Assembly (NCBI GenBank): GCA_017450485.1
Contig: JAFSTN010000040.1
Location: forward strand, 1-64,000
Origin: Lachnospiraceae bacterium
GTDB taxonomy: Bacteria > Bacillota > Clostridia > Lachnospirales > Lachnospiraceae
Length of the DNA: 64,000 nucleotides
Reading direction: 5' to 3'
Each line of letters begins with the position of its first letter. Position 1 is the stretch's first letter. The position numbers were made by a program, and so were the translations under genes. Shown here piece by piece: positions 4,719 to 30,472 of the stretch. The notes under the pieces were generated by a model. It was not told the origin of the DNA and did no database searches. It worked only from the letters and a program-made list of their open reading frames with translations.

Positions 4719-4731
4719 AGAGATATCCGTG

Positions 4732-4817
4732 CGAGGCTTATATAGATATCCCTTGCTCCGACTACCGCAAGCAAGCTTGCGCGACAGTACTCGCTGCGGG
4801 ATACTATATAAGCCTCG
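4732..4817 (+). repeat. structured palindromic repeat, copy 1
   Basis: Left arm 4732-4752 and right arm 4798-4817 form a stem of 20 pairs with a single bulged A in the left arm. They enclose a 45-nt core (4753-4797) that itself folds (CGCAAG-CAAG-CTTGCG apex). The core is 44/45 identical to the reverse complement of 29488-29532. The element lies in the spacer between the small protein gene and the alpha-galactosidase, ending 35 nt before the start codon of the latter. Confidence 0.85.
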
Positions 4818-4852
4818 CCGTGAAGATATGCATTTCATAAAGGAGTTTTCAT

Positions 4853-7190: not shown

Positions 7191-8732
7191 ATGTCAACCA
7201 TCTACATTATGATCGCCATTGCTTTATACCTGGGTGTACTGATCATTCTGGGTGCGCGATTCGCCAAGGATAATAACACGGTTGAAGATTATTATCTCGG
7301 CGGCAGGAAGCTGGGACCGTATGTGACCGCGATGAGTGCGGAAGCATCCGATATGTCATCCTGGCTGCTCATGGGTCTTCCGGGAGTAGCATATCTGTCG
7401 GGTGTGTGCGACGCTTTCTGGACCGCTTTGGGACTCGGGATCGGAACATACTTAAACTGGCTGCTGGAGGCAAAGAGGCTCAGATATTACACTGAGATCA
7501 TTGATGCCGACACGGTGCCCGATTTCTATGAGAAGAGATTCCGTGATAAGTCTCATGTCCTGATGGGCATATCCGCAGTCGTAATAGTTATTTTCTTCGT
7601 ACCTTATACCGCATCCGGATTCGCTGCCTGCGGCAAGCTGTTCTCGTCATTGTTCGGTATAGATTATGTGGTAGCAATGCTGATCAGTGCGATCATCATC
7701 ATAGCCTACACCGCCATGGGAGGCTTCATGGCTGCATCCACTACCGACTTTGTGCAGTCGATCGTCATGACGGTGGCCCTGATCGCAGTGGTATGCTTCG
7801 GCGTATCACAGTCCGGCGGCATACATGAGGTCAGCTCTTTCGCCAACTCACTTGACGGATATATCAGCATATTCAACATGAACGATTATGCAACCGGAGC
7901 TTCCGTAAGCTATGGCGGATTTATCACGATCATATCTACCATGGCTTGGGGGCTCGGATACTTCGGCATGCCTCATATCCTGCTCAGATTCATGGCTATA
8001 GAGAAGCCTGAGAAGATAGCACTTTCCAGACGTGTGGCTACGGTTTGGGTGTTCATAGCGATGGGCGTAGCCATTTTCATCGGTATCATGGCACGCGCCA
8101 TGGCGAACTACGGTGCGATCGGAGAACTCGAGGACGCTGAGAGAGCCGTTATCATCATTTCACAGAAACTCGCCGAGTTTGGCGTGTTCCCGGCATTGCT
8201 TGCCGGAGTTATCCTGGCAGGTATCCTCGCATGTACGATGTCGACCTGCGATTCACAGCTTCTGGCTGCATCATCATCCATATCCGAGAATATCCTTCAT
8301 GAAGTTCTGGGTATCAAAATGGATGAGAAAAAGAACATACTCATGGCACGTATCACTCTGGTAGTGATCGCCATCTTTGCAGTATTCGTAGCACGTAATC
8401 CTGACAGTAACGTGTTCAATATCGTATCATTTGCATGGGCCGGCTTCGGCGGCGCCTTCGGACCGGTCATGATCCTTGCCATCTTCTGGAGACGTACCAA
8501 CAGACAGGGTGCCCTTGCAGGTATGATCGGCGGCGGTGCAATGGTATTTATATGGCACTATCTGCTCAAACCTCTCGGAGGGATCTGGGGTATCTATGAG
8601 CTGCTTCCCGCATTTATCGTAGGGCTGGTATTATGTGTGGCAGTGAGTCTGCTTACTCCCGAACCGGAGCAGGAGATCCTGGATGAGTTTGACCGAGTTC
8701 TGACTCTCTCCAAGAGCAAGTCCAAAGAATAA
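7191..8732 (+). CDS. putP: sodium/proline symporter
   Basis: This sodium:solute symporter of the SSS family has 513 residues and about 13 membrane helices. The PutP-type signature DYYLGGRKLGPYVTAMSAEA near residue 32 and SDMSSWLLMGLPG directly after it are typical of proline transporters. It imports proline with Na+, for osmotic balance or as a nutrient. An AAGGAG site lies before the ATG, and the gene follows the glycosyltransferase by 24 nt. It converges with the small minus-strand gene at 8754. Substrate is inferred from the close PutP-like N-terminus. Confidence 0.88.
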   Translation: MSTIYIMIAIALYLGVLIILGARFAKDNNTVEDYYLGGRKLGPYVTAMSAEASDMSSWLLMGLPGVAYLSGVCDAFWTALGLGIGTYLNWLLEAKRLRYYTEIIDADTVPDFYEKRFRDKSHVLMGISAVVIVIFFVPYTASGFAACGKLFSSLFGIDYVVAMLISAIIIIAYTAMGGFMAASTTDFVQSIVMTVALIAVVCFGVSQSGGIHEVSSFANSLDGYISIFNMNDYATGASVSYGGFITIISTMAWGLGYFGMPHILLRFMAIEKPEKIALSRRVATVWVFIAMGVAIFIGIMARAMANYGAIGELEDAERAVIIISQKLAEFGVFPALLAGVILAGILACTMSTCDSQLLAASSSISENILHEVLGIKMDEKKNILMARITLVVIAIFAVFVARNPDSNVFNIVSFAWAGFGGAFGPVMILAIFWRRTNRQGALAGMIGGGAMVFIWHYLLKPLGGIWGIYELLPAFIVGLVLCVAVSLLTPEPEQEILDEFDRVLTLSKSKSKE

Positions 8733-8753: not shown

Positions 8754-9077
8754 TCACTTCATGAATGCTTTCATGGGATTAACGTCCCTGGCGGCATTCA
8801 TGATATCATCCATATTTTCGGTCAGATAAGCGAGGATTTCCTCGGTTTCCTCATCGGTATAACCGTTTACTGAGAGGATTTCCCCTTCGGGCATTCTGAT
8901 CTCGGCATGAGATGAATCCGTTTCGATCATTACGCATACAGACCTTTTGTCCCCTCTGTGCAGGATACCGGACACCGACATCCTGGTATCGGAGGTGATC
9001 GGAGAGGTCTGTATTGTTTTTTTATCTGCTCCCTCTGAGGGAGTTTTTTCTTTCGGAGCAGGTATATCGAAGTTCAT
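8754..9077 (-). CDS. small acidic protein of unknown function
   Basis: This product of 107 residues is not recognised. It has a low-complexity N-terminus rich in Lys, Pro and Thr (KEKTPSEGADKKT). A compact domain follows from about residue 33, with alternating beta-like and acidic helical segments (EETEEILAYLTENMDDIM). There is no signal peptide or membrane helix. A good minus-strand promoter (9114-9142) and an AGAGG site upstream of the ATG support it as a real gene. It is divergent from the M3 peptidase and convergent with putP. Confidence 0.6.
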   Translation of the reverse strand: MNFDIPAPKEKTPSEGADKKTIQTSPITSDTRMSVSGILHRGDKRSVCVMIETDSSHAEIRMPEGEILSVNGYTDEETEEILAYLTENMDDIMNAARDVNPMKAFMK

Positions 9078-28983: not shown

Positions 28984-29423
28984 ATATCGGACTCCGCTTT
29001 GGGGGCATATTTCTCTTCGCAATACTTACATCTGTAGACTTCGTTTTCTTCATCCGCCAGGACGAAGATATGCGGAAGCCCCTGCTCGATCGATGTGATG
29101 CAGCGGGGATTATGGCACTTGATGACGTTTCTTATCTCTTTGGGCAGAACGAGTTCTTTTTTGTCAACGATCTCACCGTCTTTGATCACGTTGACTGTGA
29201 TGTTATGATCGATGAATGCGAGGACGTCCAGATCCAGTGTGTTGATGTCACACTCAACCTTGAGGATATCTTTGCGTCCCATCTTGGCTGACTTGGCATT
29301 CTTGATGATGGCGACCGTATCGGCGTTCTTATCAAGTCCCAGGTGCTTGTATATCGAGAGGCTCTTGCCTGCTTTGATATGATCGAGCACGAAGCCTTCT
29401 TCTATTTTTCCTATATTTAGCAT
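28980..29423 (-). CDS. pyrI: aspartate carbamoyltransferase regulatory subunit
   Basis: PyrI binds ATP/CTP/UTP and confers allosteric control on the PyrB trimers. The 147-residue product has an N-terminal allosteric domain (FVLDHIKAGKSLSIYKHLGL) and a C-terminal zinc domain with four Cys (CHNPRC and CKYC), matching family length. It is separated from pyrB by 116 nt that contain the structured repeat copy 2. An AAAGGAAA site lies before its ATG. Confidence 0.96.
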   Translation of the reverse strand: MLNIGKIEEGFVLDHIKAGKSLSIYKHLGLDKNADTVAIIKNAKSAKMGRKDILKVECDINTLDLDVLAFIDHNITVNVIKDGEIVDKKELVLPKEIRNVIKCHNPRCITSIEQGLPHIFVLADEENEVYRCKYCEEKYAPKAESDI

Positions 29424-29473
29424 GACGATTTTTCCTTTCTGTTCAGGTTTATGTGTACTGTCCGAGGATGCGG

Positions 29474-29547
29474 CTCCATAGAAACCCGCAGCGAGTACTG
29501 TCGCGCAAGCTTGCTTGCGGTAGTCGCAGCAAGGGTTTGCTATGGAG
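29474..29547 (-). repeat. structured palindromic repeat, copy 2
   Basis: Read on the minus strand, the left arm is CTCCATAGCAAACCC (29547-29533) and the right arm GGGTTTCTATGGAG (29487-29474). They pair with a single bulged C and enclose a 45-nt core (29532-29488) that is 44/45 identical to 4753-4797. The left arm contains the last codon and stop of pyrB. The element ends 50 nt before pyrI. Confidence 0.85.
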
Positions 29548-30472
29548 TCGTATCCGTATCACTTACCAATCCCAGCAGCGTCATAATAAGCGCCATCCTT
29601 ACGTATACTCCATACTGCGCCTGCTTGAAATACACTGCCCTCGGATCGTCATCAACCTCTACGGAGATCTCATTGACTCTCGGTAGGGGATGGAGTACGA
29701 GCATGTCTTCACGGGCGAGCTGGAGCTTCTCGTTGGTCAGGATGTAGAAGTCTTTCAGTCTGACGTAATCTTCCTCGTTGAAGAAACGCTCTCTCTGCAC
29801 TCTGGTCATATAGAGGATATCGAGATCGCCTATGCTGACTTCGAGTTTGATCACTTCTTCATATTCAATGCCGGATTCGATCAACTTATCGGTGATGTAA
29901 TCCGGGATACGCAGCTCGGGAGGTGAGATGAATATGAACTTGATGCCCTCGTATCTGATGAGGGCGTTTATCAGTGAGTGGACGGTACGGCCGAATTTCA
30001 GATCACCGCAGAGACCTATGGTGAAGTTGCCGAGCCTGCCTTTGAGCGCTCTGATGGTCATCAGGTCGGTCAGGGTCTGTGTAGGGTGCTGGTGCCCGCC
30101 GTCGCCGGCATTGATCACCGGTATGCCTGACTTGCTCGCGGCCACCATCGGCGCGCCTTCTTTGGGGTGCCTCATTGCGCATATATCCGCATAGCAGGAG
30201 ATGACACGGATCGTATCGGATACGCTTTCACCTTTTGCTGCGGATGACGATGATGCTTCGGAGAAGCCCAGAACCTGTCCGCCCAGATGTATCATGGCGG
30301 ATTCGAAACTTAAGCGTGTCCGGGTACTCGGCTCGTAGAAGCATGTCGCCAGTGTTTTGCCGTCGCATACATGTGCATATTTGGCCGGATCGGCGGAGAT
30401 GCTTTCCGCCAGATCGAAGAGTTTGTCGAGCTCCTCCACGGAGAAGTCGAGCGGATTCATCAGATGTCTCAT
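29540..30472 (-). CDS. pyrB: aspartate carbamoyltransferase catalytic subunit
   Basis: This enzyme joins carbamoyl phosphate and aspartate in the committed step of pyrimidine synthesis. The 310-residue protein has the carbamoyl-phosphate loop [41 protein letters not shown] and [10 protein letters not shown] strong GGGAGGG site precedes the ATG. Downstream pyrI makes this a PyrB3/PyrI2-type holoenzyme. It lies only 60 nt after the nitroreductase gene, with a terminator hairpin in between. Confidence 0.97.

Follow-up and report, generated by a model that had tools for sequence, protein, structure and literature searches.

Short intergenic hairpins with a conserved head and private stems suggest a tiny mobile element in one genus of Lachnospiraceae

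Two hairpins on a Lachnospiraceae contig belong to a dispersed family in which a conserved head is carried on a stem that pairs within each copy and differs between copies. Comparison of orthologous spacers across the genus suggests an undescribed kind of tiny mobile element, whose hairpins appear, vanish, and flip in place. We give about an even chance to a genus-level family of short mobile hairpins, with a conserved head on a private stem, that fold as single-stranded DNA, are spread by an enzyme, and are maintained by template switching. The window referred to below is the whole 64,000-nt stretch of DNA that was analyzed.

The window hairpins and their family in the genome

The two window copies fit the features that the original prediction had listed for them. 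Their cores are near-identical (4753-4797 matches the reverse complement of 29488-29532 at 44 of 45 positions), and their arms differ while both stems pair, the outer 13 nt of the left stems matching at only 4 of 13 positions. Each has an unpaired base, at 4746 in copy 1 and at 29539 in copy 2, and both lie between co-oriented genes in the same orientation, with the head antisense in each. We define the head-forward strand as the one reading GCAGCGAG..., which is minus at copy 1 and plus at copy 2. The features are as follows.

4731..4745, minus strand: copy 1, low-coordinate arm, outer stem GCGAGGCTTATATAG; 15-bp perfect inverted repeat with 4804-4818
4746, minus strand: copy 1, bulged base, A on the plus strand and T on the head-forward strand, read from the sequence
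4747..4752, minus strand: copy 1, inner helix TATCCC, pairs with 4798-4803
4753..4797, minus strand: copy 1, conserved head of long type A, containing the CGCAAGCTTGCTTGCG internal hairpin; 44/45 to copy 2
4798..4803, minus strand: copy 1, inner helix GGGATA, pairs with 4747-4752
4804..4818, minus strand: copy 1, other arm CTATATAAGCCTCGC; inverted repeat with 4731-4745
29466..29481, plus strand: copy 2, left arm GGATGCGGCTCCATAG, pairs with 29540-29555
29482..29487, plus strand: copy 2, inner helix AAACCC, read from the sequence
29488..29532, plus strand: copy 2, conserved head, long type A, internal hairpin as in copy 1; 44/45 to copy 1
29533..29538, plus strand: copy 2, inner helix GGGTTT, read from the sequence
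29539, plus strand: copy 2, bulged G, read from the sequence
29540..29555, plus strand: copy 2, right arm, over the last pyrB codons; pairs with 29466-29481
29455..29555, no strand: stretch missing from the pyrB-pyrI spacer of genome G003, where the flanks are joined directly (BLAST against locus L137; flanks 97% and 94% identical)

According to Pfam, an alpha-galactosidase lies on one side of copy 1; on the other are a sensor kinase and, after it, a 77-codon ORF that matches no Pfam family. Copy 2 separates pyrB from pyrI. Among the loci fetched, the CGCAAGCTTGCTTGCG head insertion occurs only in the two window copies, on unrelated stems. Rfam gave 0 matches above the gathering threshold in the window; at a lax threshold, 4 loci gave 3 matches, all below threshold, of which one overlaps a copy (group I intron, 17.4 bits versus 50, E 2). 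An intrinsic terminator was considered and rejected, because neither window stem is followed by a T run or overlapped by a terminator-like site in a scan for loops of 3-8. A scan for sigma-70 type promoters found no site around copy 1 and one (9/12) upstream of copy 2 on the head-forward strand (29354-29383), which is at chance level. An unrelated hairpin, TCATGAATGC...GCATTCATGA, lies at window positions 8759-8803, in the spacer after an ORF ending at 8732.

The original prediction was to be given up if the genome held no further copies. R1, a covariance model built from nine short copies, finds 20, including copy 1 (G000:C25:4728-4820:-, E 2.1e-11) and copy 2 (G000:C25:29465-29556:+, E 1.0e-11). 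The 16-mer GCAGCGAGTACTGTCG alone gives 15 matches in the genome at up to 2 mismatches, 14 of them exact, whereas its reversed control gives 0. All 15 of these copies share one fold of arms, bulge, helix, and head. Arm length ranges from 10 to 21 pairs, with one or two mismatches interrupting some arms; the bulged base is T in 14 of 15 and G in window copy 2; and the inner helix has 6 bp, or 8 in one copy. Across the family, this covarying helix has 5-8 bp, usually with a bulged base. R1 matches are 69-97 nt long, and the head measures 26-50 nt where its ends are clear (31 of 45 copies). Heads come as type A GCGAGTACTGTCGGGTCGC, as type B GCGAGGACTAACGGGCCGC, and as a form with a GACA or GATA tip. 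Long forms carry an extra hairpin, itself variable, and one base differs in one of nine short type A heads.

Gene calls here are mechanical ORFs, and 37 of 46 copies overlap neighboring ones by at most 20 nt. One flanking gene was checked by Pfam for each of ten copies in the genome. Nine have a match at E 1e-10, all to ordinary cellular functions (for example, a gyrase/topoisomerase IV subunit, an aspartokinase-type kinase, and glutamine synthetase), and no mobilizing enzyme was among the nine.

Private stems and the strand that folds

Arms that failed to pair, or a lack of covariation, would likewise have spoken against the predicted structure, and both are contradicted by the data. In the A4 alignment of 45 copies, pairing holds in 93.7% of cells, and both sides have changed in 23 of 29 pairs. 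The covariation score is 0.732, compared with 0.155 ± 0.012 for shuffled alignments and no more than 0.129 for slid structures; 366 cells have changes on both sides, versus 96 after shuffling. A4 was fitted to the structure, which favors the covariation score; the slid and shuffled controls are still far lower. A chance origin is ruled out by the 16-mer control (15 versus 0) together with the covariation relative to shuffles.

The outer stems are nonetheless unrelated between copies. Over all pairs of the 20 copies in the genome, the outer 10 nt of the left arms share a mean of 4.05 matches versus 3.82 when shuffled, and the largest match is 7 versus a mean largest of 7.26. The inner 7 arm nucleotides are similar (CATATATG-like, mean 4.45/7). 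Simple duplication is rejected because the stems are paired but unrelated: if the arms were copied along with the element, some copies would share a stem, and none are seen to do so in this genome. The structure of the original prediction is supported as a real, covarying, dispersed one, but its premise that only selection could change bases while keeping pairing was too strong, because template switching during replication homogenizes the arms of quasi-palindromes and inverts their spacers, as described in excerpts of PMC8604942 and PMC8794818. This weakens covariation as proof of selection. We argue for selection on the folded strand from the asymmetry of its pairs instead.

On the head-forward strand, the 1023 arm and inner-helix cells of A4 comprise 931 Watson-Crick pairs, 42 G.T, 3 A.C, and 47 others. 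The last are 33 A.G or G.A, 6 A.A, 4 G.G, and 4 T.T, with no C.C or C.T, so that 43 mismatches are purine-purine and 4 pyrimidine-pyrimidine (all T.T). A4 was fitted to an RNA model and leans to G.U; the count from the 15 copies found with the 16-mer alone is free of such bias and gives 12 G.T, 0 A.C, 9 purine-purine, and 0 pyrimidine-pyrimidine. If the opposite strand were folding, it would show A.C and mostly pyrimidine mismatches, and the head-forward strand therefore appears, from these pair counts, to be the one under selection to fold. It is also the more stable strand in 43 of 45 copies with RNA parameters and in 40 of 45 with DNA parameters, heads included.

Copies antisense to their flanking genes show 18 G.T versus 1 A.C on the head-forward strand, with sense and antisense labels partly set by hand. 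This disfavors the flanking mRNA as the folding molecule at those sites and leaves single-stranded DNA or a separate transcript, of which we infer the former. The same asymmetry would be expected of an RNA transcribed on its own, and, according to an excerpt of PMC8794818, template switching itself can explain unequal base pair frequencies in stems.

Gains, losses, and inversions among species

Within the seven genomes of the genus that were searched, R1 finds 20 copies in the genome that holds the window (G000), 11 in G001, 8 in G006, 6 in G003, 1 in G005, and 0 in G002 and G004; it missed at least one copy each in G001 and G006. These genomes are mostly drafts, one per species and 82-99% complete, and G003 is the only close relative. 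The family (family 1 hereafter) was also sought more widely. A 15-mer with one mismatch allowed has matches in 9 of 98 relatives: those in G000, G001 (5), and G006 (4) are the family, and six single one-mismatch matches in other relatives fold unlike it. The type B pattern is found in 4 of 195 genomes, all within the genus. A relaxed head pattern occurs in 6 of 397 genomes of the bacterial family (G000, G001, G016, G374, G258, and G432), with unrelated middles in G258 and G432, and in 3 of 398 genomes of the phylum (G000 and two single matches with unrelated middles). The model R2, applied to 397 genomes of the bacterial family with no more than 12 candidates scored in each, finds G000, G001, G374 (2), and G016 (1, weak). 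A wider contig scan gave 42 candidate stretches, 5 of them in Lachnospiraceae bacterium XBB2008, 4 in Red_deer_4_mag_18, and the rest in other records. Two strict patterns, for family 1 and family 2 heads, had 0 matches in viral contigs. Literature searches returned no paper with the five oligonucleotides searched and none naming XBB2008; in a search on palindromic repeats and Lachnospiraceae, nothing was recognized as this hairpin family among the best 15 of 37 matches.

The distant relatives have their own peculiarities. In G016, locus L170 holds two head-like units, CGCAGCGACTTTTGGACTGAGCGCAGCGAGG, in tandem, the second of which is followed by a long inverted repeat of the upstream arm. G374, from another genus, has two relatives of family 1 (L169 and L171) with heads around GCAGCGARGAAATTCCGGGCCGCAGCA, and one of these hairpins lies directly downstream of a terminator-like hairpin.

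We retrieved and compared the orthologous spacers of relatives for the 12 copies in G000 that had no known ortholog. Family 1 is absent from all resolved relatives at six of these sites: L053 (5 relatives), L066 (4), L081 (5), L012 (3), L015 (2), and L127:3012 (2). G003 and G006 are among the resolved relatives at all six. They are the only ones compared at L127:3012, the comparison at L015 is without G002, and spacers that could not be aligned were left out (L066 in G002; L012 and L015 in G001 and G005). Run over 58 loci of relatives, R2 finds a single member of family 1, in L267, the G006 site of L129; G003, G001, G005, and G002 have none there. At the L070 site, G003 and G001 are without the element and the G006 spacer is different. 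At the L062, L018, L058, and copy 1 sites, relatives have no family 1 hairpin, and some have a different one. The six copies without counterpart are thus, most simply, insertions on the lineage of G000, with unrelated arms, as judged from species comparison; absence in relatives could partly be deletion, and at L058 and L053 G003 retains something like one arm.

The converse is seen between pyrB and pyrI, where the gap in G003 is probably a loss, because G001 and G006 carry the element. G005 and G002 have short spacers at this site, and G004 has a different hairpin. Part of the family is old, since copies are shared across species. By eye, no consistent target duplication was seen at empty sites, whose spacers are strongly diverged. 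Inverted target duplication was not adopted as the source of the arms: also by eye, sequence resembling the left arm is present in G003 at L058 and, less clearly, sequence resembling the right arm at L053, with none seen at the other empty sites.

Head orientation is mixed. Among 46 copies, 16 are sense and 19 antisense to co-directional flanking ORFs, and 11 lie between convergent or divergent ones; this count uses mechanical ORFs, and copy 1 is scored as divergent through a spurious ORF. Orientation also differs at shared sites. Comparison of flanks gave 12 ortholog groups, of which 7 agree throughout, 4 are opposite with both flanks matched (pyrB-pyrI; L011/L063; L064/L077; and L128 and L073 versus L133), and 1 (L075/L080), with a single flank matched, was excluded from the inversion count. 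A thirteenth shared site, L129/L267, is opposite too, making 5 of 13. The L064/L077 copies belong to different subfamilies and are possibly separate insertions in one spacer.

Heads differ at shared sites as well. The pyrB-pyrI element has a long type A head in G000 and type B heads in G001 and G006, on stems that can be aligned: compared head-forward over 17 pairs, 12 are identical and 2 changed on both sides with respect to G006, and 11 are identical and 4 changed on both sides with respect to G001. At the epimerase site, G000 has head A and G003 head B, with both sides changed in 2 of 16 pairs. That heads differ where the stems can still be aligned implies that heads change independently of the stem. 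At another shared locus (L126 in G000, L065 in G003), the element plus 15 nt of flank on each side is identical over 104 nt, although the wider flanks are 90-93% identical.

Other hairpins occupy some of the same spacers in other species. A second, larger family, with a core like GGCGAGGTATTTCACGAGCC, has a conserved head and species-specific arms, with one inverted copy at a single orthologous site. That is the L058 site, where it is present in G006, G001, and G002, inverted in G005, and has different arms in each. It is also found at the copy 1 site of G003 (L254); its loci are L254, L257, L269, L280, and L290. A third family, of about 190 nt, is represented by L250 and L262, the L018 site in G003 and G006. 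The long hairpin in the G004 pyrB-pyrI spacer (L140, about 2391-2540) has a different head. In the G006 spacer of L062 (L258), a hairpin TTCC..GGAA with a one-base bulge and a long stem has the architecture of family 1 with another head, and the G005 spacer of L053 (L279) has the similar palindromes GGAAATGCATCCATGCATTTCC and GGAAATACATCCATGTATTTCC close together. The behavior of heads and arms seems common to several hairpin families.

Explanations and their weight

In the mobile-hairpin reading that we prefer, the head-forward strand would fold as single-stranded DNA, for example behind the replication fork, and the folded DNA would be the substrate of a putative enzyme responsible for its spread. 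At the quasi-palindrome so formed, template switching would keep the arms complementary and could flip the element in place. Stems that change yet remain paired, and the flips, are explained in this way; template switching does not account for a new stem at a new site and, in its plain form, gives no strand bias. Searches for a mobilizing enzyme in G000, covering Y1 transposases and one flanking gene of each of ten copies, found none, and no transposition intermediate was found. Horizontal transfer that draws on a diverse pool could also be the source of private stems. A more tentative proposal is that a new stem is written at each insertion: the single-stranded head would join the site, and its folded 3' end would prime snap-back synthesis over some 20 nt, giving each insertion perfectly complementary arms of its own. 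On this view, stems would be side products of insertion, with one machinery serving several unrelated head families in the genus.

Template switching alone could also have reshaped inherited intergenic repeats that have no present mobility, with arms being homogenized, heads flipped, and hairpins decaying and being deleted. Homogenized arms, inverted spacers, and perfect stems created in one step are documented in excerpts of PMC8604942 and PMC8794818, the latter of which credits asymmetric base pair frequencies to the same process. Orthologous stems that diverge with changes on both sides, orientations that differ in place, and the probable loss at pyrB-pyrI all agree with this. However, the six copies without counterpart in resolved relatives make gains seem to occur, outer stems are unrelated although short heads match, and strand-neutral homogenization predicts equal numbers of G.T and A.C where we find 42 versus 3 and 12 versus 0, so we consider this explanation rather unlikely. 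Somewhat less likely still is that the copies are dispersed genes for small trans-acting RNAs, with transcription on the head-forward strand in each. Such genes would explain the strand asymmetry (A/G mismatches included), the conserved head with interchangeable tips, and the strong covariation, and copy 2 has its promoter-like site; but this is at chance level and copy 1 has none, the stem extends to the two ends of the element, many of the copies between co-directional ORFs are antisense, and orientation differs between species at some sites.

The original prediction offered a choice between a new cis-acting RNA motif and a REPIN-like mobile palindrome. The mobile palindrome fits better. An element acting in cis on flanking mRNAs, as a processing site, stabilizer, or attenuator, would suit the small overlaps with neighboring ORFs, and other hairpin families sit in the same spacers of other species as if a hairpin were useful there. 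We nevertheless regard it as quite improbable, since heads point both ways, at some shared sites in opposite directions; antisense copies have G.T and not A.C on the head-forward strand, the opposite of what selection on mRNA would leave; and the window stems have neither the T run nor the terminator-like site sought above. The REPIN-like part fares worst. REP and REPIN elements moved by a Y1 (RAYT) transposase resemble family 1 in size, extragenic dispersal, likely mobility, and a hairpin that forms in single-stranded DNA, and compensatory changes are also reported in REPIN spacers (excerpts of PMC3116915 and PMC3733652, the former for the changes). In contrast, REPINs conserve their two ends and vary the spacer, whereas family 1 conserves the middle and varies the stem. 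GTAG or CTAC, the REPIN tag, is found in the 8 nt at either end of the match in only 1 of 45 copies. The Y1 transposase profile (Y1_Tnp, PF01797) has no match in six of the seven genomes (G000, G001, G002, G003, G005, and G006) and one partial match (profile positions 2-57 of 121) in G004, which has no R1 copy. We therefore hold movement by a Y1 transposase to be very improbable.

Other known systems are similarly partial likenesses. Unlike MITEs of DDE transposases, nonorthologous copies in G000 differ at their arm ends and have no conserved terminal inverted repeats. ERIC, Efa-1, and Sta-1 are also intergenic repeats that fold as long stem-loops, but they are defined by clustering of shared sequence, and neither copy-specific stems nor in-place inversion is described in the excerpt of PMC2267715. 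The repetitive hairpin-forming elements of sponge mitochondria are likewise dispersed in spacers, yet have conserved stems with substitutions in the loops, which is the opposite pattern (excerpt of PMC2800124). Template switching at quasi-palindromes shares the homogenized arms and inverted spacers, but is a mutation mechanism rather than an element, and it moves no head to new sites.

A conserved head, a private stem, inversion in place, and replacement by other hairpins lie outside the REPIN, MITE, and ERIC pictures. If the stems are made at insertion, the chemistry of transposition would be an undescribed one. If they are not, these hairpins would document in nature, and unusually cleanly, how template switching and selection act together to maintain such structures, which bears on how far covariation proves RNA function.
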